A stretch of 37,947 nt of DNA, from IMG/VR virus record IMGVR_UViG_3300008450_000146, positions 1 through 37,947 of that record. One strand, given 5' to 3'. Of this stretch, positions 8,791-37,680 are shown one piece after another. Under the pieces are notes generated by a model. That model saw nothing but the letters and a program-made list of their open reading frames with translations, was not told the origin of the DNA and made no database searches. The DNA comes from a virus. The position numbers and the translations under genes are program-made. How positions within the stretch are numbered: the stretch's first letter is position 1; every line of letters begins with the position of its first letter.

Positions 8791-9231
8791 ATGCAGCTGA
8801 AGAAGCTAACTCTTGAGCTTTACGAAAAAATCATTGATGCCGTTTATGCCAAATCACTCAACCATCTTAATATGCTTGGTCATGTTACTAGGGACGAGTG
8901 CGCTGACTACCTTGGCTTTTATGCGCTCAATAATGGTTTGTTCTGGAGTGAGCAAGATGGTCAAATTGTTGGAGTTTCAACTGCACACCCTGGCAAAAAA
9001 GACATTGATTGGACTTGGGAAGAATCAAATGGTATTTGGACTGCCCACCTTGTTTGGGCAGACAATACACAGGCACACGCAGAAGTTTTGCGGCACTTTT
9101 TTGAAAGCCGAAACGAACCTGTTGTTGAACTGTGGACTTGGAGGAAAAATCGTCCAGTAGAATTAACCACAAAGAAGCTAGAAAGGATTTTATCTTATGG
9201 GCGGCGGAGATACAGTAATACAGGCACCTAA
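8791..9231 (+). CDS. Small protein at head of internal-virion block, weakly GNAT-like
   Basis: A 146-residue protein. The stretch FWSEQDGQIVGVSTAHPG (residues 51-68) looks like the beta4 strand of GNAT acetyltransferases, and the following segments (WTAHLVWADNT..AHAEVLRHFFE, WTWRKNRPVEL) suit an alpha/beta fold. The acetyl-CoA motif (Q/RxxGxG/A) is not evident. T7 gp13, also just upstream of the ejection proteins, is a comparable small GNAT-like virion-morphogenesis protein, so position supports the guess. No Shine-Dalgarno sequence is seen. Its last 35 bases overlap the next gene. Function is unproven. Confidence 0.5.
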   Translation: MQLKKLTLELYEKIIDAVYAKSLNHLNMLGHVTRDECADYLGFYALNNGLFWSEQDGQIVGVSTAHPGKKDIDWTWEESNGIWTAHLVWADNTQAHAEVLRHFFESRNEPVVELWTWRKNRPVELTTKKLERILSYGRRRYSNTGT

Positions 9232-10915
9232 GGCACCAGATTATGGTGGCTCAATGCGAGAGATTCTTACCTCTCAAGTTGAGTTAGCTCCGCAGGTGTA
9301 CGCCAGTGAGGCGATTTACCAGCCTAAATACGCACAGCTTCAGGCTCAAGTTCAGGGGTATTTGGGCGAGCAAGCATTGGCTCAGGCGGCCAAAATGTTC
9401 CCTCAGGTTGCCGAAATTGAGGCTCAGTATGGTGCAGCCAATCGTGCCGCCGAACTTCAGCAGCTTCAGTCTTCTCTGCCGCAATATCAGCAAGCATTTA
9501 GCTCGTTGACTCCAGGCCAAAAAGAAGCCCTTGGGACCACCGGTCAGTTGGCGCAGCAATCCATGGAGCGCTCTTTGCAGTCTCCAGAGCTTGCAGCTTA
9601 CGAGCAGGGAATTGCCGGCCCATCTGCTGGACAATACCTTGGTCAGGTTGGCGAGTTTCAAGCGGTCTCTCCCTTGTCTCAGCTTGGACAGACAGCCGCT
9701 CAGGCCGCTGGGTCTGCTGGCCCAGTTCCGATGGCGCAAAACATGCAGATGGCTCAGTCTGCTAATGCGGCAGCCAGATCTGCCGGCCTTGTGCCTGATG
9801 CCGTAAACATGCCGCAGGTTGCTGGGCCACAGCTGCAATCTGGACTGCAAAACATAGATCAAGGGAACGTGTCTCAGTACGTTTCAACCATGCCTGGCAT
9901 GGGGGACTATGCGCAGTTTTTGGCTGAATCTTCCAGGAAAGAGCTAGAAGCAGGAAAGGGACTCACGGAAGAGGAGCAAAGAATTGCAGACCAGTCTGTG
10001 AGGGCTGCCTATGCTGCTAGAGGAACTGCACTTGGTAATCAGGCTGTTGGCTCCGAGATCCTCAATAGAGCATCAACCGCAAATCAGCGTTACCAGCAGC
10101 GACTGTCAAATGCTGCATCCGCGGCAGGACAGATCCAAGGCATCTATCAGCCTGCACTGGCTCAATCACTGCAACGGCAGCAGGCTGGTTTGGAGTACGA
10201 CCTTGGCGCTCAAAGCCAGGCTTTTGGTCAGGCTCAGGCTAGAGACACTTTTGCTCAGCAACTTCAGGCCCAGCGGTACGGACAAGCCATGGGCACACAG
10301 GGAACAGCATTTGGACAGGCTCAGGCAAAGGATGCCGCTGCCCAGTCCTTGCAGGCCCAGCGCTTCCAGCAGGCTATGGGCGCTCAGGGAGCAGGCTACG
10401 AACAGCTGGCAAATCAAGAAGGCTACCTTCAGGGGGTACAAGCTCAAGCATTCGGGCAGGCAATGGGCCGCGAAGAACTTGGTGCCGCCACACAACAGCA
10501 AGCATTCAATCAGGCACTTGCCCGCAATCAGGCTGAGCAACAACGCCTTCAAGCTGGCACTGCTATTCAAGCCGGCCAGGCTCAGCTTGGCGCAGGCGCA
10601 CTTGGACAGCTTCAGCAGGCGCAGGCTCCCGTGCTACAGGCGTTTTACAAGCAGCCAATCTTGCAGGGGCAAAGCAATTTTGCCCAGCAGATGGGAGCGA
10701 ACATGGGTCAGGCCGCTGGCCCTCAGTACTTTAACCCAGAATCACAGACTGGCATGGGGAGTATCTATGGGGCTTATAACTCACAGATGAACCTTGCAGG
10801 AGCACAGGCTCAGGCTAATGCTGCCGAGTCTGCTGGCAAGAGCAGCATGTTTGGCTCGATTGGCGGCGGGCTGCTTGGCGCAGGCGGCATGGTTGGAGGC
10901 GCATTGATTCTCTAA
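9197..10915 (+). CDS. Gln/Ala-rich internal virion (DNA ejection) protein candidate
   Basis: A 572-residue protein very rich in Gln, Ala and Gly, mostly helical in appearance. Residues about 330-480 contain degenerate repeats of FGQAQAxDxxAQxLQAQRxxQAMGxQG, and the C-terminus is a Gly/Ala hydrophobic stretch (GGGLLGAGGMVGGALIL) that could enter a membrane. Helical, Gln/Ala-rich proteins encoded in series upstream of a very large protein are characteristic of podovirus ejection complexes. Start ATG 9197 has AAGGA upstream and gives MGGGDTVIQAPKAPDYG, an N-terminus of a type frequent in such proteins. Its stop overlaps the start of the PP-loop gene by one base. Confidence 0.65.
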   Translation: MGGGDTVIQAPKAPDYGGSMREILTSQVELAPQVYASEAIYQPKYAQLQAQVQGYLGEQALAQAAKMFPQVAEIEAQYGAANRAAELQQLQSSLPQYQQAFSSLTPGQKEALGTTGQLAQQSMERSLQSPELAAYEQGIAGPSAGQYLGQVGEFQAVSPLSQLGQTAAQAAGSAGPVPMAQNMQMAQSANAAARSAGLVPDAVNMPQVAGPQLQSGLQNIDQGNVSQYVSTMPGMGDYAQFLAESSRKELEAGKGLTEEEQRIADQSVRAAYAARGTALGNQAVGSEILNRASTANQRYQQRLSNAASAAGQIQGIYQPALAQSLQRQQAGLEYDLGAQSQAFGQAQARDTFAQQLQAQRYGQAMGTQGTAFGQAQAKDAAAQSLQAQRFQQAMGAQGAGYEQLANQEGYLQGVQAQAFGQAMGREELGAATQQQAFNQALARNQAEQQRLQAGTAIQAGQAQLGAGALGQLQQAQAPVLQAFYKQPILQGQSNFAQQMGANMGQAAGPQYFNPESQTGMGSIYGAYNSQMNLAGAQAQANAAESAGKSSMFGSIGGGLLGAGGMVGGALIL

Positions 10916-11754
10916 TGACTGCTGAACAAACTATACTACTCGCACTCAGGCATGCAAAACGACCTGCTGTTCTTTGGAGCGGCGGAAAAGACAGCACTGT
11001 GTTGCTGGATCTCACAAGAAAGATTCGGCCAGACATTGAGGTGATTCACTTCAAGTTGCCGTTTTTGCCACAGAAATACGCCTTTCACCATGTAGCACAA
11101 GAAACCTACCGGATGACCGTGCATGACTGGGTGCCAGCATCTATTTCTATAACCCACGGGAATGGGCGCATAGATGTTTGTGAAAAGTACTCCATTGGAG
11201 ATGGGGACATCAGGGTAATGCGAGGCACAGAACCGATGGAGCCAGGTAAGCCTTGGGTGTGCGGAAAGGAATGGCTAAACCGCCCAAAGGCGCACGTTGT
11301 GTCTGATTTTGATGTGTTGCTGTGTGGACACAAAAGTAGTGATGAAGACCCTTTGACGGGTCAGATTCCTCTTGAGATCCACAAGAAGATGCTAGGGCCA
11401 AGTACGGAGATGTGGTTTCCGTTGCGTGAATGGACGGATCTTCATGTGGCTAACTACATCATTTACAACAACGTACTGTTTGACCGAAATAGATACGATG
11501 AGAATGTGGTCAGTAAGCCGAGCAAGCACATGAACTCTGACTACGTTCATGCCTGCTTTAACTGCGTGGACAATCGGCTTGGCAAGTTTGTTGATTGCCC
11601 TAAGCACGGCATCCAAGTAGAGAACCTGCATGAGCACGCACTCCATGAGCAGCCAGTCGCAGAGTACTGCAACATCCGATCTGGACTGCAAAACCTGCGG
11701 GGCGTGTTGCAGCCACAAGTGGAGCTGGCCGGTGCTTCGCCGGGACAGGGCTGA
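10915..11754 (+). CDS. PP-loop ATPase, PAPS reductase / ATP-sulfurylase-like
   Basis: A 279-residue protein of the adenine-nucleotide alpha-hydrolase (PP-loop) fold. The pyrophosphate-binding loop SGGKDST is at residues 22-28. LCGHKSSDED (136-145) and PLREWTDLHVANYI (169-182) are the blocks shared with PAPS-reductase-like proteins. A CxxC pair (CFNC 214-217) and Cys228 follow. The ECGxH active-site end of true assimilatory reductases is absent, so sulfate reduction is doubtful; adenylation or sulfur transfer to an unknown substrate is more likely. The gene lies inside the internal-protein block, starting on the stop codon of the ejection-like gene (TAATG). Its last 40 codons overlap the YkgJ-like gene. 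Confidence 0.85.
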   Translation: MTAEQTILLALRHAKRPAVLWSGGKDSTVLLDLTRKIRPDIEVIHFKLPFLPQKYAFHHVAQETYRMTVHDWVPASISITHGNGRIDVCEKYSIGDGDIRVMRGTEPMEPGKPWVCGKEWLNRPKAHVVSDFDVLLCGHKSSDEDPLTGQIPLEIHKKMLGPSTEMWFPLREWTDLHVANYIIYNNVLFDRNRYDENVVSKPSKHMNSDYVHACFNCVDNRLGKFVDCPKHGIQVENLHEHALHEQPVAEYCNIRSGLQNLRGVLQPQVELAGASPGQG

Positions 11755-11977
11755 TGCAGCCGGAATACCACCAGAGTTGATTCGAGATGATTACCCGCTT
11801 CTCAAGACATGCAACAACAGGTGTGCTGCTTTGTCTGGAGTTGTCGGAGAATCTGTTTCCTGTACAATTTACGAAAACCGCCCACAGGCCTGCCGGCAGT
11901 TTAAGGCTGGAAGCCCTCTGTGCTTAGAAGCTAGGAAATCATTTTATGGCAAGACCAATCAATCCGTATCAGGGTGA
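11630..11977 (+). CDS. YkgJ-like cysteine-cluster (zinc/iron-binding) protein
   Basis: A 115-residue protein with CxxCxxCC at residues 20-27, further cysteines at 61, 65, 78, 88 and 98, and the block CTIYENRPQACRQF (78-91). This is the signature of the YkgJ/UPF0153 family, thought to bind zinc or an iron-sulfur cluster; the biochemical role is unknown. The first ATGs in frame are 11630 and 11645, both deep inside the PP-loop gene, so 110-125 bases are used in two frames. The CxxCxxCC at 11687 onward shows that much of the overlap is truly coding in this frame. The two products may work together. A +1 shift from the PP-loop frame would produce a fusion, but no slippery site is obvious. Confidence 0.75.
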   Translation: MSTHSMSSQSQSTATSDLDCKTCGACCSHKWSWPVLRRDRADAAGIPPELIRDDYPLLKTCNNRCAALSGVVGESVSCTIYENRPQACRQFKAGSPLCLEARKSFYGKTNQSVSG

Positions 11978-12590
11978 AGCGCCAAGAGCAATGGCCCAAA
12001 TGGGTCAGGGCATTCTTGAAACTGGAGCCAACATTGCCAAAACAATTCAAGGTGGCTATGAGCAGATGGGCCAAGGCATTGCCAAGGGCATTACGTCAGC
12101 AGCCAGCGCATATGCTGATTACAAAAAGCTGAAGGCAGACACCGCTGCTGATGAAAAGGTGCTTGGCACACTCACAAAGTACATGACTCCAGAAATGAAG
12201 ACCATGTTTGATGATACAGCCAACTCAGACATGCCCTACGCCGAAAAGAACGCCATGTACAAGCGTGCCTTTGAGTACATCGGAGGCGCCGTTACTCAGA
12301 AGCAGGCCATGGACAAGCTGAATGCGTCCGGAAGCATTCAGGAAAATCTTGCCAAGCAGTCACAGGATGCTGCTGCTGCGCTTCAGAAGAGTCAGCTTGA
12401 GGCCAACCAAAAGCTGCAAGAAGATCGGCTCAAGGCGGACCAGGATTTGCAGCGCTTCAAGGCTGTGTCTGATGCTGTGTCTGGTGGTCCCATGATTTAC
12501 GGACCCGGTGGAGCTGCTCGCTCAACCACTCCTGATTTTACCCAGAAAAGAAAAATGAACATCGGAGGAGGTGTTTATGATGGCCGGTAA
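11946..12590 (+). CDS. Internal virion protein candidate, helical
   Basis: A 214-residue protein starting MARPINPYQGEAPRAMAQMGQGILETG. Residues 15-60 are Gly/Ala-rich. A long charged, Gln-rich coiled-coil region covers about 115-170 (SGSIQENLAKQSQ...LQEDRLKADQDLQRFK). No enzymatic motif is seen. It overlaps the YkgJ-like gene by 32 bases and the next gene by 14. N-terminal Gly/Ala segments plus coiled coils are typical of ejection proteins, and the next two genes look the same; this is inference from composition and context. Confidence 0.6.
   Translation: MARPINPYQGEAPRAMAQMGQGILETGANIAKTIQGGYEQMGQGIAKGITSAASAYADYKKLKADTAADEKVLGTLTKYMTPEMKTMFDDTANSDMPYAEKNAMYKRAFEYIGGAVTQKQAMDKLNASGSIQENLAKQSQDAAAALQKSQLEANQKLQEDRLKADQDLQRFKAVSDAVSGGPMIYGPGGAARSTTPDFTQKRKMNIGGGVYDGR
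12564..12570 (+). promoter_or_regulatory. Strong ribosome binding site deciding the start at 12577
   Basis: GGAGGAG lies 6 bases before ATG 12577. This favours that start over the in-frame GTG at 12571 and is one of few strong Shine-Dalgarno sequences in the late region. Confidence 0.6.
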
Positions 12591-13680
12591 CACTCAAGAT
12601 CCGGCCGAGGCCGATGTGCAAAGGTACCTGAATGACCCCACCATTCAGGCAATAATGGGAATCAGACAGGGCCAGATGCGGCAGGCCCAAGAGGCTGAAG
12701 CCCGGCGACTAAAAGAGGCTGAAAAGTATCGGACAGAAGGCCTGACCCAGATTCAGGAGTTCGTAAACTCCATTCCAGAACAAGACAGAAAAGCTCCTGC
12801 TATCATGCACGACATTCAAGCCTTCACAAGAAGGCTCGAGCGTGATGCTGAACTGAAGGCCATTGATCCCAATGCCAAAAACGCTGAGTTCGAGCGACAG
12901 AGGATCAAGGACATGTACGGTGATCCAAAAGATTTTATCGACACCGATTTGTTCAAGCAGGCCGAGCAAACAGCCCATAGCACCAAGCCAAAGTTTGAAA
13001 GCGCATTTCGTCTTGGAAAAAGCATTGATGAAATGCAGTACATTTTGGAAAACAAGGGCGAAGAGGCAGCCAACCAATACGGCAGAACCAGCTTAATGAA
13101 AGAGCTGAACTCCCTGTGGGGTTCGGACGCCGTTGGTTTGTCTGAAGCTGTGCTGCGTTACAATCAGCTGATTCCAATCCAGCTTCAAAACCAGATCAGC
13201 GGAAAGTCGATGCTTGAGGCTACGAACATCATCACAAAGTTCATGTCTGATCCCAGAAACAAGGCAGACACCATTTCCAGCCTGGCCAATGGGCTTTCTA
13301 ATATGTTCGTTGGCGATGCCCGAGGCATGATGGATGTTGCCCGGTCGATGCAGGATGTTTCCGCAAAAGGACACAACGAAAATGTGAGGCTTCTAAAAGA
13401 GCGCACCAGTCCGTACCACATCAAGCGTCTTGGCGTGCAGGAGCTAGAATCGGTCAACGAACGGGACAAAAGATTGGCCAAAGAAGCGGCCATGTCGGCT
13501 GCTGGCGGAGTGCAAATGTCTGGAGGCCAATACTCTGGGCCGACTCAAATTCAGACAACTTCCGGGACATATCGTGCGCCGGGAAATGACCCAAGAATGG
13601 AAGTTGCAAGAAAAGCGCTCAGCGATCCAAATGCAAGTGAGGACCACAAAGCTGCTGCTCGCAAAATTTTAGGACAGTAA
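12577..13680 (+). CDS. Internal virion protein candidate
   Basis: A 367-residue, mainly helical, Gln/Glu/Arg-rich protein. A charged coiled-coil-like N-terminal half (IRQGQMRQAQEAEARRLKEAEK...) is followed by a mixed region and a flexible Gly/Ser/Thr segment near 310-335 (AAGGVQMSGGQYSGPT). I recognise no motif. ATG 12577 is chosen because GGAGGAG sits 6 bases upstream; a second ATG follows at once at 12580. The gene stops 1 base before the 1146-residue protein. Position in an unbroken series of late genes supports a virion role, probably in the ejection complex. Confidence 0.6.
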   Translation: MMAGNTQDPAEADVQRYLNDPTIQAIMGIRQGQMRQAQEAEARRLKEAEKYRTEGLTQIQEFVNSIPEQDRKAPAIMHDIQAFTRRLERDAELKAIDPNAKNAEFERQRIKDMYGDPKDFIDTDLFKQAEQTAHSTKPKFESAFRLGKSIDEMQYILENKGEEAANQYGRTSLMKELNSLWGSDAVGLSEAVLRYNQLIPIQLQNQISGKSMLEATNIITKFMSDPRNKADTISSLANGLSNMFVGDARGMMDVARSMQDVSAKGHNENVRLLKERTSPYHIKRLGVQELESVNERDKRLAKEAAMSAAGGVQMSGGQYSGPTQIQTTSGTYRAPGNDPRMEVARKALSDPNASEDHKAAARKILGQ

Positions 13681-13681
13681 T

Positions 13682-16600
13682 ATGCCAAGCGAATACGACA
13701 TCCTCCTTCAAGAACCTCAGACAGGATCCGAGTACGACATCCTACTGGCGCCAACCTCTTTCGAGCAGGTGCCCGGTGAGCTGGCGTTCCCAATCGAGGG
13801 TGGCGGCATTCAAAAAGCAGATCTGTCTGATCCCCGGATTTCCCCGACCGAACGCGAGGAGACATGGAACACGCTTGATGGCAAGATCACGCCCGAGTTT
13901 GCCAGAGACTTCATGCTATTGGCTGCCGGCGCAGTCAACGCACGCTCCTTGAGGTACAGCACTGGGAAGGAGGAATTTCCGGTCGAGACACCCAGGCAGG
14001 TGTTTGACGCTGCCGTTCAGAACCAGCTGCTCGCGCCAACATTTGACGCGGACCCCAAGTTTGGAGCCTTCAAGTCCCACTGGGACCAGTACAAGGCTGA
14101 GATGAATCCGTCCATGCTTGGGGCAGCCGGCCGTGGGGCTGTCAGCGCTATCGGATCAACCGCTGGTGGTATAACCGCTGGCGCAATCGCATCTCCAATG
14201 GCGGCCGCCGGCCCGGTTGGGGTTGCCGGTGTTATCGCAAGCAGTATGGCTGGCGGAACTGCCGGGGCGGCCGCTCAAGAGTTTTTGGCTCCATCAAGCT
14301 CCAGAGAGGTTTCCCAGCGGATGTTTGATGAGGCAAAAGACAGCACCCGCCGGGCACGGCTGGCTGGTGAGATTGTCCCGAGCCTTGCCACGGAGACACC
14401 CACTTTCATTGGGCCAAACAACGCACTGTCCAAGCTGGCCAAGCTCGAGATGCCCAAGCAGGTGCTCGATTTTGCCGGCAGCGCACTGGCCAAGGTTGAT
14501 GTGGCTGCGGCGAAAAAGATGCTTCTTGGTGGAGCCATTGGGGGCGCCATTCCTGCCGCGATAGATGCTCTTACCAACAAGGCCGTAGATCTCGAGCGTG
14601 TGGTTCAGGGCATCTTTCAGGGTGGCGCCATGCAGGGCAACAGCCTTGGAAAACTTCTGCATGACCGGCTTGCTTCTACCACACAGCAGGCACTGGAAAT
14701 TCGGAACAAATTGTTTCAACGGAATGTCTCAGAAAACGCTCGAACTGACGCAATTTTCAGGCTGCAAGAGGCTGGTAGTGTAAATCAAAACGGGGTTCGT
14801 TTGATGAGCGGAGAACTTGTTGGCGGAATGCTTGCAAGAATGCAGCGTGTTTTAGGGGCAACTGCTGACTCGAGGATCTCTGAGCGCATGGCCGCCAACG
14901 AAAGAGCTATTGCCATGAATTTGGCAGACGAGCTTGCCCCAGAAGGCGCCCCGGCTGAAAGAACGCGGGCCTATGCTGAGGAGTGGCAAAACAGGCTTTT
15001 GGCAGAAGCAGATGAACTGCATCGCGCTTTGTCTGAAGCGGGACAGACACAGTACACGGACGTTTTGGATACGGCCATGCGGCAGTCTGCGGCTGCTCAC
15101 GCTGCCCGCGAACAGGGCATCCTGAATGCTGAAACAACAGAGGCCCTTACCATACGGAACCTTGAAGCTGCTGTTGCAGACATAAAGTTGCGTGCCGGAA
15201 TCCGGGAGCCAGCGGCCAAGGCTGTCCGCGACATCTTGGTCAGCGAAGGTGATGTTGCTATCAAGGCTGCTTCACAGCTTTACGAAACACCAAAAGCATC
15301 TCCGGCAAGGACAACTTTTGACAACACCTACCAAGCACTAAGGTGGAGCCAAGGCAGCCAAGGCTTCGGTGAAAGCGGCAGGAAAGACAAGGCCATTGCC
15401 CCGGCGATTGTTTCAAGGCTCCTAAAACTCAGGAAGCCGTCAATCAGCGCAACAGGAAGAAGACGGCATGAGCGTCCGATTACCGAGTTGATCACGGACT
15501 ACAGAAATGTAAATCAGGCAATCAGCGAAGCGGCTGAAAAAAATCAAGACAACACGGTTCGTGTCTTGATGAAGATCCGCGAGGGGATGCAAAAAGATCT
15601 GGATGCTGCTGGAAATGTCTGGCCAGAGCTTCAGGAAGCCAACAAGGCTTGGAAAGAGGCCATGAGGGTTTATGGAGATGGCCAGATTGGAAAAGTGGTC
15701 GATTCCCGTAATGCCATTCCTACTTCAGAAACGCTCGATAAAATCTTCAAAGGGAAATCCGGCACTCAAGATTTGAGTGCTGCCCAGCAACTGCGAGCTG
15801 CCATCAAGGAACGCCCGGAGGGCATTGCTGCCGTTACCGACTGGTTTGTCCACAGGCTGGCCCTGAAGGGCGGGAAGACATCAGAAAGCATGTCATCTTG
15901 GCTCAACAGGCCTGAGCAAGTTGAAGCATTAAACTCTTTTCCAGAAGCTCGAGCCACTCTCGAAAACCATATCCGGGACATCCGAAATGCGGAGGTTCAG
16001 GTTGCGGGTGCTCAGACAGCAATGAGGGCAGCGCAGGCAGTTCCAAACGTAAATCCAAGCCATGTCGATCCGGCTGTTCGCACAGCTGCAAGAGAGCAGC
16101 GCGATGCCGTCATGGCTATTGCCAGAGACAGACAGACAGACATGAGAAGGCAGATTGCCAGCAACGCCTTCTCCAACTTTGTCGGAGCGGATCCGCAGGT
16201 AGCAATCAGGGAAACCCTAAACTCGAGAGATCCCGTTGGGGCCATGCGTCAAGCTGTGCAAATGGCCGATCAGGATCCATCTGGAGAGGCCGTTCAGGGA
16301 CTCAGAAATGCCCTGAGGGATTTCATTGGAGAAGCTGTTGAGAAGAATGGACGCCCATTGTCCGCAGACAATCAGCCAGACAGGCCACTTGGCAGGGGTG
16401 AGCTTGCTTTGTCGTTGGCAAAGCTCGATGACTTCATGAAGACATCCTCTCCAATGAGGGCAGTTATTGAGGTCGCATATGGCCCGGACTCAGTGGAGCT
16501 TCGAGCCTTGGACATGGCCCGCGAGCAGATGGAGATTTGGAGCAGGACACAACAGCTTACTCCCGGATCTTCGCCAACGATGGATTTGGCTGGCCTGCAA

Positions 16601-17122
16601 AAGGCCATGGAGGGTCAGGTTCAAGACAACCTGCTTGGACTCATTTCCAAAGTCGGAAAGGGCCTGATGCCTCGTAGCTCAGCATTCAACAAGCTGACTT
16701 GGCTGGGAGACATGTTCAGCGGCGTTTACAACCGAGGACTCGAGCAAATGGTGGAGCGGTTTCAGGTGGATGCCACGCTGGATCCCAATCTGGCCATTGA
16801 GGCACTGTTGCCGCTGCGGCCAGAGAACATGCCGCGCATCAATGCCGTTTTGAAGAACTACTTTGTTTCCAAAGACCAGCTTTACAAGGAGGTTCCACAG
16901 CTGCCATTCAGCGTCTTGAACACCAAGGAGGAGACACTGGGAGAAGGAAAGTTCCTGAGAGACAAGGTGACCGGGTACTCCATTCAAGCAGTGAACGGGA
17001 AGTTCAGAACCTACGATGCCAAGAGCCGGCAGATTGGAATTTCAGACACGCTTCAGGCAGCCAAAGACAAGGCCGTCATGGAAGACCTCAAGAAACTCCC
17101 GCCACTCAAACCAAGAAAATAG
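13682..17122 (+). CDS. Very large internal virion / DNA ejection protein candidate
   Basis: At 1146 residues this is the largest gene in the window. The first 22 residues contain SEYDILL twice (3-9 and 16-22), a short repeat at the N-terminus like those seen in other large phage internal proteins. Residues about 137-200 form a Gly/Ala hydrophobic segment (GRGAVSAIGSTAGG, IASPMAAAGPVGVAG, AGGTAGAAAQ) suited to membrane insertion. The remaining 900 residues are mostly charged helices. I see no transglycosylase ES...T/NGS motif or protease motif. Size, position last in the block, and composition match the role of T7 gp16-like ejection proteins, without recognisable sequence identity. AGGA precedes the start. 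Confidence 0.65.
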   Translation: MPSEYDILLQEPQTGSEYDILLAPTSFEQVPGELAFPIEGGGIQKADLSDPRISPTEREETWNTLDGKITPEFARDFMLLAAGAVNARSLRYSTGKEEFPVETPRQVFDAAVQNQLLAPTFDADPKFGAFKSHWDQYKAEMNPSMLGAAGRGAVSAIGSTAGGITAGAIASPMAAAGPVGVAGVIASSMAGGTAGAAAQEFLAPSSSREVSQRMFDEAKDSTRRARLAGEIVPSLATETPTFIGPNNALSKLAKLEMPKQVLDFAGSALAKVDVAAAKKMLLGGAIGGAIPAAIDALTNKAVDLERVVQGIFQGGAMQGNSLGKLLHDRLASTTQQALEIRNKLFQRNVSENARTDAIFRLQEAGSVNQNGVRLMSGELVGGMLARMQRVLGATADSRISERMAANERAIAMNLADELAPEGAPAERTRAYAEEWQNRLLAEADELHRALSEAGQTQYTDVLDTAMRQSAAAHAAREQGILNAETTEALTIRNLEAAVADIKLRAGIREPAAKAVRDILVSEGDVAIKAASQLYETPKASPARTTFDNTYQALRWSQGSQGFGESGRKDKAIAPAIVSRLLKLRKPSISATGRRRHERPITELITDYRNVNQAISEAAEKNQDNTVRVLMKIREGMQKDLDAAGNVWPELQEANKAWKEAMRVYGDGQIGKVVDSRNAIPTSETLDKIFKGKSGTQDLSAAQQLRAAIKERPEGIAAVTDWFVHRLALKGGKTSESMSSWLNRPEQVEALNSFPEARATLENHIRDIRNAEVQVAGAQTAMRAAQAVPNVNPSHVDPAVRTAAREQRDAVMAIARDRQTDMRRQIASNAFSNFVGADPQVAIRETLNSRDPVGAMRQAVQMADQDPSGEAVQGLRNALRDFIGEAVEKNGRPLSADNQPDRPLGRGELALSLAKLDDFMKTSSPMRAVIEVAYGPDSVELRALDMAREQMEIWSRTQQLTPGSSPTMDLAGLQKAMEGQVQDNLLGLISKVGKGLMPRSSAFNKLTWLGDMFSGVYNRGLEQMVERFQVDATLDPNLAIEALLPLRPENMPRINAVLKNYFVSKDQLYKEVPQLPFSVLNTKEETLGEGKFLRDKVTGYSIQAVNGKFRTYDAKSRQIGISDTLQAAKDKAVMEDLKKLPPLKPRK

Positions 17123-19085: not shown

Positions 19086-19816
19086 ACATCACCATCAAGA
19101 TCACGCACGTCTCCGGAACCGTCACCGAGGTCAGTATTCCGATGGGCGATTCTGTGGCTGTTTCTATGCCTTCCGCTCCGGTGACCCCTGTCGCACCACA
19201 AGTGGCATCAGAACCCGCCATTCCGGCCGCTGATGAGGGGGACAATTGGCCGAATGATTACGAGATTTTGCATGGCGACTTGCTGCCGGGCAAAAAGCGT
19301 TACGCATCGGTGCAGGACATGCTCGATGGCAAAGAAATTGTCCGCTCGAAACATGCGGAAGAGATAGAAGAAGGGGAGGTAGGAGGGGAAGAAGGGGGAT
19401 GCAAGGGGGAAGAAGGGGAGAAGGAGGGGAAGAGGAAAGAGAAACCAGACCCAGAGCTTGCCGAACTCGAGCGCGAAGCCGAGTTGAACGCCTTGGAGGA
19501 TTCTCGCGACCTTTGCGAAATCGAGTTCCGAACTAAGCAGGGCGCCTACAGGCTCGAGCCGTCATTTGTTCACGACCTCCTGAAGGTGCATGACGACCCG
19601 TTTTTGCGCCGAGAGCTGATCAAGGCCAAGCTATGGCTTGAGGCCCACCCACACAAGGCCAAGTCGATGCGCGGCATGAAGAGCTACATCAACAGCTGGA
19701 TGAACCGTGCCGCTGAAACGCTGGCCTTCCTGCAACACAAAGCCGTTGTGGCGCCTCCCAAAAGACAGGAACCCGGCAGCTTGCTGGCCGCAGCAAAATC
19801 GGAGGTGGGTTGGTAA
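19082..19816 (+). CDS. Putative replisome accessory / helicase-loading protein
   Basis: A 244-residue protein. Residues 1-90 are a beta-rich N-terminal region. Residues about 93-122 are a low-complexity Glu/Gly/Lys linker encoded by a polypurine tract. The C-terminal domain has a long helical region and the block WLEAHPHKAKSMRGMKSYIN (about 181-200) then SWMNRA. A pattern of the form W...np.k..t.rG...fi..Wm.ra is found at the end of phage replisome-organiser or DnaT-like proteins encoded beside a DnaB helicase; this is recalled, not computed. It ends one base into the dnaB N-terminal start (TAATG), suggesting coupled expression and a role in loading that helicase. Confidence 0.5.
   Translation: MNITIKITHVSGTVTEVSIPMGDSVAVSMPSAPVTPVAPQVASEPAIPAADEGDNWPNDYEILHGDLLPGKKRYASVQDMLDGKEIVRSKHAEEIEEGEVGGEEGGCKGEEGEKEGKRKEKPDPELAELEREAELNALEDSRDLCEIEFRTKQGAYRLEPSFVHDLLKVHDDPFLRRELIKAKLWLEAHPHKAKSMRGMKSYINSWMNRAAETLAFLQHKAVVAPPKRQEPGSLLAAAKSEVGW
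19357..19443 (+). repeat. Interrupted polypurine tract within coding sequence
   Basis: Almost all bases from 19357 to 19443 are A or G, with GGGG/GGGGG runs and only a few pyrimidines. It encodes the Glu/Gly/Lys-rich linker. Triplex or G-quadruplex formation is possible. Confidence 0.6.
19801..19807 (+). promoter_or_regulatory. Ribosome binding site for the dnaB N-terminal half
   Basis: GGAGGTG lies 8 bases before ATG 19816. This supports that start over the in-frame TTG at 19810. Confidence 0.55.
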
Positions 19817-20472
19817 TGGAAATCCCAAAAGCCACCGAGAGTGAGCGTGGGATTGCCTCCATTGCGCTCAATCATCCGACCACGCTGCTCAACAAAATCA
19901 CGGAGCAGAAGTTCAGCACCGCTGACATCCTGGACCCAACGAGCCGAGCTATCGTTGAGACAATTCTGGATCAGACATCCCGGAACGCCAGCTGTGACGT
20001 TCGGGTGTTGTACGAGAAATTGCGCGAGCGTCTTCCAGAGATCCAGTTTTACCAGCTCACAGAGATGTACACGCTCATGCCGCTTGAGGGCTGTCTGCCG
20101 GAGTTGCTCGAGCTGGTGAAGAACGCGGCGAAGCGCAGGGCATTGCTGATGGTAATGCAGCAGGCCTTGGTGAAGATTGCTGCGGCCGACATCCAGACCC
20201 CAGAGTTGGTCAACGAGGTTGCCATGAAGGTGGACGGCATCCAGACAGAGCTGATGCCCCCGCAGGTTGCGGACACCAAGAAGCTCCTGCTCGATGCGAT
20301 GGATCGTTATCAGACTGGTGACGATGCCACGCAAAGAATCAAGACAGGTTACGACAAAATTGATAACCTGACCCCAATCCGCCTTGGCGATTTCCTTGTC
20401 ATCGGCGGAGAAACGAAAAGTGGAAAAACAATGCTGGCACTAAACATCATAGCAAATCTTATCTCCGAATGA
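19816..20472 (+). CDS. dnaB: DnaB-type replicative helicase, N-terminal half (split gene)
   Basis: A 218-residue protein. Residues 1-150 match the helical N-terminal domain of DnaB, followed by the linker helix and the start of the RecA-like motor: RIKTGYDKIDNLTPIRLGDF (174-193), then Walker A GETKSGKT (198-205) and the helix after it, MLALNIIANLISE. It stops there (TGA 20470-20472), before Walker B and all other motor motifs. The missing part is encoded 2.1 kb downstream at 22590-23180. Alignment with ordinary DnaB (ALNIAENVAIN|EGKPVLFFSLEM) shows that the next expected residue is the first residue of that gene. Alone it could bind nucleotide but not hydrolyse it. The stop overlaps the next gene's ATG. 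Confidence 0.85.
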   Translation: MEIPKATESERGIASIALNHPTTLLNKITEQKFSTADILDPTSRAIVETILDQTSRNASCDVRVLYEKLRERLPEIQFYQLTEMYTLMPLEGCLPELLELVKNAAKRRALLMVMQQALVKIAAADIQTPELVNEVAMKVDGIQTELMPPQVADTKKLLLDAMDRYQTGDDATQRIKTGYDKIDNLTPIRLGDFLVIGGETKSGKTMLALNIIANLISE

Positions 20473-22337: not shown

Positions 22338-22608
22338 CAAGCTCGAGTTTGTCGAGAATTGGTATCGCAAGAATTGGGTGCGCAAACTGAACTGGGTTGT
22401 CCTTGGAAGCAATGGCTTCGCTTGGACGGTGATGAGCGAGTTCGGAGACAACCAACCCGCTGCGGAGAACTACTTCCTTCACAACGTGGAGAACGCGAAG
22501 AGCTGCAATGGCCCACTTAAAAACTTCCGCTTGGAGAAGCGTGTGGGTGTCATTCAGATTGCCGAGGAAATTGAAATGGAGTGCGAGACATGGGAACAGG
22601 AATCCTAA
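22288..22608 (+). CDS. Hypothetical protein, last gene of the dnaB-splitting cassette
   Basis: A 106-residue protein starting MPAYETPDQKQIRYLYDKLE. It has several Trp, Tyr and Glu residues in probable helices (FVENWYRKNWVRKLNWVV) and an acidic end (EIEMECETWEQES). I recognise no family. The open frame reaches back to 22231, but MPAYE is the first natural start outside the core of the upstream gene. Its last 19 bases overlap the dnaB C-terminal half, so the right boundary of the cassette is also coding on both sides. Confidence 0.55.
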   Translation: MPAYETPDQKQIRYLYDKLEFVENWYRKNWVRKLNWVVLGSNGFAWTVMSEFGDNQPAAENYFLHNVENAKSCNGPLKNFRLEKRVGVIQIAEEIEMECETWEQES

Positions 22609-23180
22609 TCATTTCGCTGGAGATGCCGGCCAGCCAGATCATCGACCGGCTTGTTGCCCGGCTTGGTAACGTGAGTCTCCGGGCCTTGGCCGAGGGCGTG
22701 AAGACACAGGGAGACATCGAGGGTGTCCACCGGGCTGTCACCAAGATTCACAACTCGAACATTGTTGTCCGGGATGACCTGTACGACATTGCGAGCATTG
22801 CGGCCACCGCTCGAGCCATGGCCAAAAGTCCAACCGGCCTGAAGGTGCTCATGGTTGACTACATCCAACTGGTCCGCTGCGATTTGGGGCGCGAGGGCAC
22901 CCGTGAGCGTGAGGTTGCCGAGGTGTCCCGTTCCTTGCGTTTGCTGGGGCTGGAGTTGGGTTGTCTGGTGATTTCAATTACCCAACTCAACGAGCAGGGG
23001 AAGGCCCGCGAAAGCCGCGCCATCCAACAGGACGCCACCTGTATCATGGCCATCAAGCTGGATGAGGAGGAGGGATCCGAACTTCGGACAATCTCCATCC
23101 CCTACCAGCGGAACGGCCCTTGTGGCGTTCAGACAACACTCAGATTCAACGGCCGCACGGCCAGCTTTTTACCTCAATGA
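22590..23180 (+). CDS. dnaB: DnaB-type replicative helicase, C-terminal half (split gene)
   Basis: A 196-residue protein holding the rest of the RecA-like motor: IISLEMP (7-13) with the catalytic Glu11, Walker B LKVLMVDYIQL (84-94), ISITQLNEQGKARESRAIQQ (128-147) covering the sensor and DNA-binding loop region, and PYQRNGPCG (171-179) with the arginine-finger region. No Walker A is present; it lies in the gene at 19816. ATG 22590 is chosen because GGAG lies 8 bases upstream and because it makes the joined halves (218+196 residues) collinear with DnaB with no gap. A GTG at 22581 would add three residues. Assembly of the two polypeptides into a working hexamer is the simplest explanation. Confidence 0.85.
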   Translation: MGTGILIISLEMPASQIIDRLVARLGNVSLRALAEGVKTQGDIEGVHRAVTKIHNSNIVVRDDLYDIASIAATARAMAKSPTGLKVLMVDYIQLVRCDLGREGTREREVAEVSRSLRLLGLELGCLVISITQLNEQGKARESRAIQQDATCIMAIKLDEEEGSELRTISIPYQRNGPCGVQTTLRFNGRTASFLPQ

Positions 23181-27336: not shown

Positions 27337-28170
27337 CTAGGCTTCGGAGAATTGAACCCCCTGGGCTTTGAGTTGTTCCACAATCCAGCGCCGGGAGGCC
27401 TCCGGCGTCCAAGCGGTTTCGGAAAGGATCCCCTTCAGAGTTATATCCCCCTCTGGAGTCCAGCTTTCAACCGGGCATCCGTAGCCCCCACCCATTCTTG
27501 CGTCGACGTGCTCCCGGAGCGGGGAAGCTTCACAAATCCGGAAAAAGCACCTCCGGAGCACGTCCGGACAAACAAGCCAAAAGGCCAGCTTGTCCAAGTC
27601 GAAAGGCTCCCCGGCCTCTTTAACTACCGTCTCTGCGTACAAATAACTCCCGTCTCGAGTTGTTGCGTCTCCCACTACAACCCGGACGCTTCTCCCGGAG
27701 CGCTCAAGCAAGACGGCCAAGGCTAGCATGGCCGCTCCCCGGGCTTCGATTGTGGCGGCCGGAACGCATCCCGAAACCGTACAATTTAAGGCTAAGGTGA
27801 CAACCTTGCTTCCCTTCGTCTCTTCCTCCGTTTCCGTTGTTTCCAGCCAAGCTTCCGGTTCACCGGAGAGAACAAGGCCAACGTCAAAGAAGAGGCCGGA
27901 GACGGCCGGCCGGAACGTCTCTTTTAACATTCCGGAGCCAACAAAGGCGGAAAGGCTTTCTACAAGGCCGGAGACGGCCTTTAAGCCTTCCGGCCAACCG
28001 AACTGAATGGCTCTTTCACAAGCCGGCCAGTTCGGAAGCCGGGTAAAGGTTGAATCCGCCGACCTTTCCTTTTCGGAAGAGCCTCCCGGAGACTTGGCCA
28101 TATAGTCTAGCGTTTCTTGGATGTTCCGGAATTGAAGCCGGAGCGTTTTTGGTTTGAGTGTCTTTGCCAT
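27337..28170 (-). CDS. Partner protein of the CobS-like ATPase (DUF7192-like)
   Basis: A 277-residue protein. RSADSTFTRLPNWPACERAI (about 36-55) followed by QFGWPEGLKAV matches a family (f.gt.s...A...a..GWpeG...) that I recall as DUF7192, found next to CobS/MoxR-type ATPases in phages. The rest has alternating beta and alpha segments (VVTLALNCTVS, AAMLALAVLLERSGRSVRVVVGD) with a shape that could be a von Willebrand A-like or related fold; no clear DxSxS is seen, so this remains a guess. It starts 9 bases after the ATPase stop in the same leftward operon. Composition is strongly GGCC-rich, like the ATPase gene. Confidence 0.6.
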   Translation of the reverse strand: MAKTLKPKTLRLQFRNIQETLDYMAKSPGGSSEKERSADSTFTRLPNWPACERAIQFGWPEGLKAVSGLVESLSAFVGSGMLKETFRPAVSGLFFDVGLVLSGEPEAWLETTETEEETKGSKVVTLALNCTVSGCVPAATIEARGAAMLALAVLLERSGRSVRVVVGDATTRDGSYLYAETVVKEAGEPFDLDKLAFWLVCPDVLRRCFFRICEASPLREHVDARMGGGYGCPVESWTPEGDITLKGILSETAWTPEASRRWIVEQLKAQGVQFSEA

Positions 28171-28179
28171 GGCCGGGAA

Positions 28180-29325
28180 TTAGGAGAGAAGCTTTTCAGC
28201 GGAGAGGGAATCCAAGGCCTTAAAGAGAAAGCCTTTCTTGAGCCATTCAAGGCCAACCCCGGCGGCCGCAAGCTTTGCCCCTCCGATAGTAGCACGCGGG
28301 GAAATAACAACCTTAACACCGTGCTTCTCCGCCCCTTCCCGGGCTTTCTGCACAAACCAAAGCCAACCGGCGGCCGTTGTTGTTCCACCGGCGGCCATAT
28401 CAAAGGCCGGGGATTCAACCCCGGAGACGCCAACGAGAGAGGCCTCGAGGCCTTGGTCCAAGGGAAGGTTCAAGAAAAAGAAACGGTCCAAGGTGGCCGC
28501 GTCAATTTGATTCCGGCCAACGTAACCGCCGGTGGCGCCGTTTCCAAACGTGTTTGCACAAGCAACACAAACAAACCCTTCTCCCCGCTTCACCGTAGCG
28601 TCCGGGAAGGTCATTTCCCCGTTGGCTAAAGCGGAATTGAGCACGGCCAACACGTTGGGGTTTCCGCCGTCGGCTTCATCTAAGCAAAAGACAAACCCCT
28701 TTTCAAAGGCCTCCCGGAAGGCCGTTCCCCGGTAAACCCCGGTGGCATCAATAAAGCCCAAAAGGTCGGTTTTGGTAGTTTGCGCGCAAACCGACAAAGC
28801 CCGGTGTTCCAACCCCAGAACCCCGGCGGCCGCTCCGACTAGGCTTGTCTTTCCCCCGCCGGCCGGACCGACAAGCCAAAGGTGAGTCCGGGTTGAAAGG
28901 GCGGCCACAATCAAAGGAAAGTAGCTATGTTCCCGGCGTTCCGTTGTTACCGTCCCGGCGGCCGTTGTGAAGCTGTAATGCACCACGGAAGGTTCCGGCT
29001 TCGGAGCATGCTCCCGGATTAGCTCAAGGATCCGGGCTTCGTCCAAGGCCGGCGCCTTCGGTTGAACCATTGCGAGCGCTTGCATCATCAAAGCGGCCGC
29101 CGTTTCGTTCCCGGCCGAAAGGGAAGAGACAACCGGCGCCGGCTTCGGCTCCGGCCGATTAACCAAAGCCAACAAGGCCGTGTTGCTTTCATCCGTCCAA
29201 GCTTCATTTAACTCCGCCATAGTCAGGGAATCGGCAAGCTTTGACGCTACGCCGGCTTCCCGGAGCCAGTTCCGGAGAAAAGAACGTGCTTCGGCGCCGG
29301 AGAGGGTTTCGTTTCGGTTGTACAT
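28180..29325 (-). CDS. CobS/MoxR-type AAA+ ATPase
   Basis: A 381-residue ATPase. Residues 1-110 are a helical N-terminal region. The AAA+ core follows, with Walker A GPAGGGKT (153-160), Walker B FVFCLDEAD (211-219), sensor-1 Asn258 in CVACANTFGNG, and DAATLDRFFFLNLP (275-288), which carries the arginine finger of the AAA_5 group. The closest build is the CobS-like MoxR clade, which remodels partners often bearing VWA-like domains; the next gene is the likely partner. The substrate in phages is unknown. It is the first gene of the leftward operon, behind an A-rich leader. The DNA is dense in GGCC and CCGG, unlike the rest of the window. Confidence 0.8.
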   Translation of the reverse strand: MYNRNETLSGAEARSFLRNWLREAGVASKLADSLTMAELNEAWTDESNTALLALVNRPEPKPAPVVSSLSAGNETAAALMMQALAMVQPKAPALDEARILELIREHAPKPEPSVVHYSFTTAAGTVTTERREHSYFPLIVAALSTRTHLWLVGPAGGGKTSLVGAAAGVLGLEHRALSVCAQTTKTDLLGFIDATGVYRGTAFREAFEKGFVFCLDEADGGNPNVLAVLNSALANGEMTFPDATVKRGEGFVCVACANTFGNGATGGYVGRNQIDAATLDRFFFLNLPLDQGLEASLVGVSGVESPAFDMAAGGTTTAAGWLWFVQKAREGAEKHGVKVVISPRATIGGAKLAAAGVGLEWLKKGFLFKALDSLSAEKLLS

Positions 29326-37512: not shown

Positions 37513-37587
37513 AGCGAGGTAGAGCAGTGGCAGCTCGCCAGTCTCATAAGCTGGAGGCCGCAGGTTCGATTCCTGCCCTTGCAACCA
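37513..37587 (+). tRNA. tRNA-Met(CAT), initiator-like
   Basis: A complete 75-base cloverleaf. The acceptor is AGCGAGG / CCTTGCA with discriminator A and encoded CCA. The D arm is GAGC-AGTGGCA-GCTC, the anticodon stem CCAGT / GCTGG with loop CTCATAA (anticodon 37545-37547), and the T arm GCAGG-TTCGATT-CCTGC. Position 1-72 is an A-A mismatch and the 11-24 pair is A-T, both features of bacterial initiator tRNAs. The anticodon stem lacks the three consecutive G-C pairs of normal initiators. It lies 8 bases before the Tyr tRNA. Confidence 0.88.
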
Positions 37588-37595
37588 ATTTCATT

Positions 37596-37680
37596 GGGTG
37601 GTTCGCATAGCGGCTATTGCAGGAGACTGTAAATCTCCCGCCTTCGGGCATCATTGGTTCGAGTCCACTACCACCCACCA
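37596..37680 (+). tRNA. tRNA-Tyr(GTA)
   Basis: An 85-base class II tRNA. The acceptor is GGGTGGT / ACCACCC with discriminator A and encoded CCA. The anticodon stem GGAGA / TCTCC closes the loop CTGTAAA (anticodon GTA 37629-37631). A long variable arm contains GCC-TTCG-GGC, as expected for bacterial Tyr tRNA. The T arm ATTGG / CCACT has one mismatch. The next gene starts 5 bases after the CCA. Confidence 0.9.

Follow-up and report, generated by a model that had tools for sequence, protein, structure and literature searches.

Two overlapping genes whose products both look like sulfur- or metal-type proteins lie within a run of virion genes in an uncultured phage, and the question that this locus raises is what such a pair is doing there. 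The window, by which we mean the whole stretch of DNA that was analyzed, is a virus record of 37,947 bases; it encodes a major capsid protein of the SU10 type that scores above cut-off, and its match to the SU10 portal is weak. The features that matter here are the following.

8791..9231, plus strand: small non-ejection-type protein, 146 aa, upstream of the ejection genes (from its position)
9197..10915, plus strand: ejection-type virion protein, 572 aa, starts MGGG, no cysteine
10915..11754, plus strand: PP-loop ATP-pyrophosphatase of the PAPS_reduct superfamily (PP), 279 aa (from PF01507, AF2, Foldseek and 50 relatives)
11630..11754, plus strand: overlap of PP and Cys, 125 nt (from codon-position variation in 42 non-redundant relatives and PP pLDDT)
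11630..11977, plus strand: CxxCxxCC (YkgJ-like) cysteine-cluster protein (Cys), 115 aa, or 110 aa from the ATG at 11645 (from PF03692 and 49 relatives)
11946..12590, plus strand: ejection-type protein, 214 aa, no cysteine, with a 32-nt overlap with the end of the Cys gene
12571..13680, plus strand: ejection-type protein, 369 aa, no cysteine
13682..17122, plus strand: large ejection-type protein, 1146 aa, no cysteine

A sequence-only reading of this DNA had given the ends of both genes and an overlap of 110-125 bases exactly as listed, and its placing of the pair within an ejection-protein operon agrees with the cysteine-free ejection-type proteins found on either side. The stop codon of the 9197-10915 gene overlaps the start of PP in the sequence TAATG.

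Elsewhere in the window, the minus strand at 27337-29325 encodes a MoxR-like AAA ATPase (28180-29325) and a DUF7192 protein (27337-28170). A DnaB-type helicase is split on the plus strand into two pieces (19810-20472 and 22581-23180), the first of which stops right after Walker A while the second picks up at the next strand; once joined, they align to an intact helicase. The approximately 2.1 kb between them contains dNMP kinase-like, PDDEXK exonuclease-like and other genes, and no intron family was found. The pieces are apart in 13 of the 14 window-clade records searched, and the frame-2 sister records with a helicase match have a single frame of 466-556 aa.

The family assignments made for the two proteins proved sound. 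PP matched PF01507 at 38.5 bits (Pfam cut-off 22.5, E=1.6e-9) and carries SGGKDST at residues 22-28. Its PP-loop and four cysteines, C116, C214, C217 and C228, are invariant in all 50 aligned PP sequences, and the C-CxxC-CP pattern, scored by residue order rather than by superposition, is present in 39/39 in-family representatives. The AF2 model of PP (pLDDT 88.7) is well ordered apart from residues 257-279 (pLDDT <50), a stretch whose codons lie opposite the Cys motif. Foldseek matched this model to solved structures of PAPS/APS reductases, FAD synthase and TtuA, a [4Fe-4S] protein, all of them remote (TM-score at most about 0.55), and the best viral model was that of an uncultured phage protein (TM-score 0.84-0.89, 33% identity). 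By analogy with these families, PP is probably a PP-loop enzyme of the [4Fe-4S] type with its cluster on C116, C214, C217 and C228.

The PF01507 match is also what would be expected of an auxiliary gene, a PAPS/APS reductase serving sulfur assimilation, redox balance or the response to oxidative stress, and a sulfur-assimilation or redox role has been proposed for the PAPS reductases of JC1 and of freshwater phages (PMC9144972, PMC6802176). However, the C-terminal catalytic motif of CysH, ECG[LI]H, was missing from 41/41 PP representatives, and the curated CysH-type NCBIfam models scored PP at 15-19 bits, far under their cut-offs of 154-254. CysH/PAPS reductase activity was rejected on account of the absent motif and, as an auxiliary role would also have to accommodate a fixed slot among late ejection genes, we consider that role unlikely.

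The Cys protein scores above the Pfam cut-off for the YkgJ/YcgN family (PF03692; 37.4 bits, cut-off 23, E=4.4e-9) but far under that of the YcgN equivalog model (14.6 bits, cut-off 150), and it differs from that family in being tied to PP. Eight of its cysteines, including those of the CX2CX2CC motif, are invariant in 49 aligned relatives. The motif, CKTCGACC, falls within the overlap, as had been noticed from the sequence. The structure model of Cys is poor (pLDDT 52.7), and a profile search returned no solved structure for it. Judging by its family, Cys probably binds an Fe-S cluster or Zn.

The shared stretch measures 125 nt from the first Cys ATG and 110 nt from the second in-frame ATG. 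Downstream of 11645 there is no ATG, GTG or TTG before the first codon of the motif (11687), so that normal initiation of Cys requires the genes to overlap by 110 nt or more. We compared variation by codon position across 42 window-clade sequences, all non-redundant. Over the 45 nt that precede the motif, variation follows PP codons (0.28, 0.14 and 0.40 at PP positions 1, 2 and 3); in the initial 45 nt of the motif region it follows Cys codons (0.08, 0.12 and 0.28 at Cys positions 1, 2 and 3), with both patterns clear farther out from the boundary. The constraint therefore switches at the motif, from the PP frame up to about 11686 to the Cys frame from 11687, and acts on a single frame at a time; the disorder in the PP model, confined to residues 257-279, is consistent with this switch. 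Because codon variation follows one frame at a time, the N-terminal tail of Cys and the C-terminal tail of PP are by-products. The overlap is incidental, a case of ordinary phage compaction without a function of its own. It would arise where PP frames stay open into the Cys gene beyond the last codon that PP needs, and where the nearest usable Cys start codons fall inside PP.

First scans for relatives gave 63 viral loci for PP and 80 for Cys; later scans added more, and duplicates were then removed. The pair proved to be conserved in other phages: in 115 distinct viral loci, far more than chance would give, PP is followed by an overlapping Cys gene of the same strand, and this shared order and overlap exclude a sequencing error, so that the objection of an artefactual indel falls. 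The Cys frame relative to PP is +1 in 55 of these loci and +2 in 60, while in six others Cys lies tail-to-tail with PP on the opposite strand. The overlap in the representatives ranges from 11 to about 260 nt, with just 11-17 nt in some loci, and one locus has only a distant Cys start codon. The census also met fragments cut by contig ends (L270 among them). PP stands without Cys in five in-family genes, from five sister lineages, and in three genes of the Bcep22 type; whole-record searches found no Cys gene in the five lineages or in the tested Bcep22-like and MW202711-like records, although such records may be incomplete. PP-alone relatives, which the sequence-only reading had named as a counter-argument, do exist, and this objection applies in part.

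These arrangements bear directly on the proposal that a programmed +1 frameshift fuses PP and Cys into one protein. The Cys frame of the window clade does overlap PP in the +1 frame, but a fusion in half of the loci would call for a shift in the other direction, six loci encode Cys on the opposite strand, and the overlap can shrink to 11 nt. An in-frame fusion was never seen, and none of the ORFs in the collected loci matched both profiles. As codon variation at any one point reflects a single functional protein, the fusion is unsupported; frameshifting is refuted as a conserved mechanism, and we regard it as extremely improbable here.

On the PP tree the gene arrangements are interleaved, which suggests repeated changes in the frame, in the overlap length and in whether Cys is present. 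The linkage of PP and Cys nevertheless persists through the changes of frame and strand, and every phage Cys gene that we found adjoins PP, with L146 as the sole exception. That record (CAKLQH020000013.1), filed as Acinetobacter phage MD-2021a, contains several bacterial metabolic genes in a row (aceF, guaB, glmM and recJ) and may be bacterial sequence rather than phage. The distances of PP and Cys are correlated (rank correlation 0.43, Mantel p 0.001), as shared phage ancestry would also produce. Cys could in principle be an independent passenger, a YkgJ-like gene acquired from a host that sits beside PP without any joint work. This would account for the PP lineages that lack it and for its far better conservation in a distant clade (61-70% identity, versus 27-33% for PP), which transfer could explain too, but it sits poorly with the constant adjacency to PP in three different arrangements and with the correlated distances, and we think it improbable. 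The comparisons instead indicate that the partnership of PP and Cys is real and evolutionarily kept. Since several PP relatives have no Cys gene, Cys may at times be dispensable or supplied by the host.

The pair is carried by a large group of short-tailed phages that are uncultured and come mostly from freshwater; no isolated phage gave a direct match to the PP or Cys of the window, or to three other PP relatives. A single genome-contig match (L143) was considered as a host copy of the gene and rejected, since it is apparently a phage contig that had been placed in the bin of a MAG. We found no literature on phage CxxCxxCC proteins paired with PP.

PP is flanked by cysteine-free ejection-type proteins, and in the pair-bearing representatives such neighbours together contain 5 cysteines in about 49,000 aa, 4 of them in a single ORF that is possibly not a gene. 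The annotated ejection proteins of P22 (gp7, gp16 and gp20), T7 (gp15 and gp16) and N4 (gp50, gp51 and gp52) have no cysteine at all. PP and Cys, with 7 and 9 cysteines respectively, break this rule, which suggests that neither is ejected and that both probably act in the cytoplasm.

Near-absence of cysteine, seen in the window (9197-10915 and 11946-17122), in its relatives and in P22, T7, N4 and JC1, may be a simple marker of ejected proteins. In 32 of the 38 loci scored, the ejection-type protein upstream of PP starts with MG, mostly MGG, which resembles an N-terminal acylation signal. This MG-starting protein is often preceded by a small protein, annotated as an acetyltransferase in Bcep22-like phages; the 8791-9231 gene occupies that slot in the window, and BLAST found no similarity between its product and JC1 gp63.

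Taken together, the sequence-only interpretation is partly supported: the conserved pair, the sulfur- or metal-type look of both proteins and their place among late virion genes hold, and the frameshift fusion does not. The reading that we prefer, with a probability of about 0.5, is that PP and Cys form a late, two-protein cytoplasmic enzyme that modifies something tied to the ejection-protein step and is not itself ejected. PP would be an adenylating ATP-pyrophosphatase with a probable [4Fe-4S] cluster on its four invariant cysteines, and Cys, reasoning from the chemistry of the two families, would be its dedicated sulfur, electron or metal partner. Both would be produced in the cytoplasm of the host late in infection, and they would act either on the ejection proteins or on DNA or RNA synthesised at that stage. 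Cysteine chemistry on the ejection proteins themselves is disfavoured because these neighbours are cysteine-free.

A different possibility is thiolation of nucleic acid, in which PP would put sulfur into phage DNA, as DndC does, or into tRNA in the manner of TtuA/TtcA, with Cys as the sulfur or cluster carrier; late expression would then mark DNA before packaging or tune late translation. The single cysteine plus CxxC, as in DndC and APS reductase, and the presence of TtuA among the fold matches agree with this, as do the genes for tRNA-Met(CAT) and tRNA-Tyr(GTA) at 37513-37680 on the plus strand of the window. On the other hand, a Pfam scan of some 30 window proteins, a set smaller than the full complement of ORFs, turned up no DndB/D/E-like partner or Ssp protein, no nucleic-acid-binding domain was recognised, and the fixed slot among ejection genes is left unexplained. 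We therefore see thiolation as possible but doubtful.

Phage 'PAPS reductases' are usually filed under sulfur assimilation. The family described here is without the CysH catalytic motif and, even in phages that have diverged greatly, remains at a single place among the ejection genes; in one large group it is joined by a cysteine-cluster protein dedicated to it. This combination suggests a late function connected with ejection proteins or with packaged nucleic acid, and not one in host metabolism. The finding proper is the conserved pair and its slot, which provide a concrete protein pair for testing. As a more speculative extension of the preferred reading, which we advance only tentatively, a phage-specific two-component Fe-S/PP-loop enzyme that modifies ejection proteins (not on cysteine) or packaged DNA might carry out a maturation step, so far unrecognised, that readies short-tailed phages for genome ejection, with the Bcep22-type proteins as one-component versions.

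The PAPS reductase-like proteins of Bcep22-like phages (BcepIL02 gp67 and JC1 gp65) belong to the same superfamily as the PP of the window; the JC1 protein is related to the window family with an hhalign probability of 96%, and for the PP-superfamily protein of MW202711 the profile-level relation is weak. BcepIL02, JC1 and MW202711 all carry their gene in a slot equivalent to that of the window, which in Bcep22-like phages lies between two virion proteins and downstream of the small annotated acetyltransferase. In contrast to the window, the Bcep22-like phages have neither a Cys gene nor such an overlap, and their PP is very diverged, with C-CxxC-CP missing in the two relatives tested. JC1 gp66, encoded after PP, contains no cysteine and was rejected as a Cys homologue. 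Virion proteomics of JC1 lists gp64, gp67 and gp68, and gp63, gp65 and gp66 are not listed (PMC9144972); the absence of a protein from such a list is weak evidence, and JC1 is only distantly related. FliB, a flagellin lysine methyltransferase, binds a [4Fe-4S] cluster through a CX4CX3CC motif, has eight conserved cysteines and modifies a structural protein (PMC8598068). The Cys protein has a related motif and the same number of conserved cysteines but, unlike FliB, its motif is CX2CX2CC and its length of about 100 aa is too short to accommodate a catalytic domain. In DndC and APS reductase the [4Fe-4S] cluster is held by one cysteine plus a CxxC (PMC12193691), and the PP of the window shares with both the PP-loop fold and a single cysteine followed by CxxC about 100 residues on. 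It is distinguished from APS reductase by the lack of the catalytic ECG[LI]H and from DndC by its fourth invariant cysteine, which comes after the CxxC in PP and before it in DndC.
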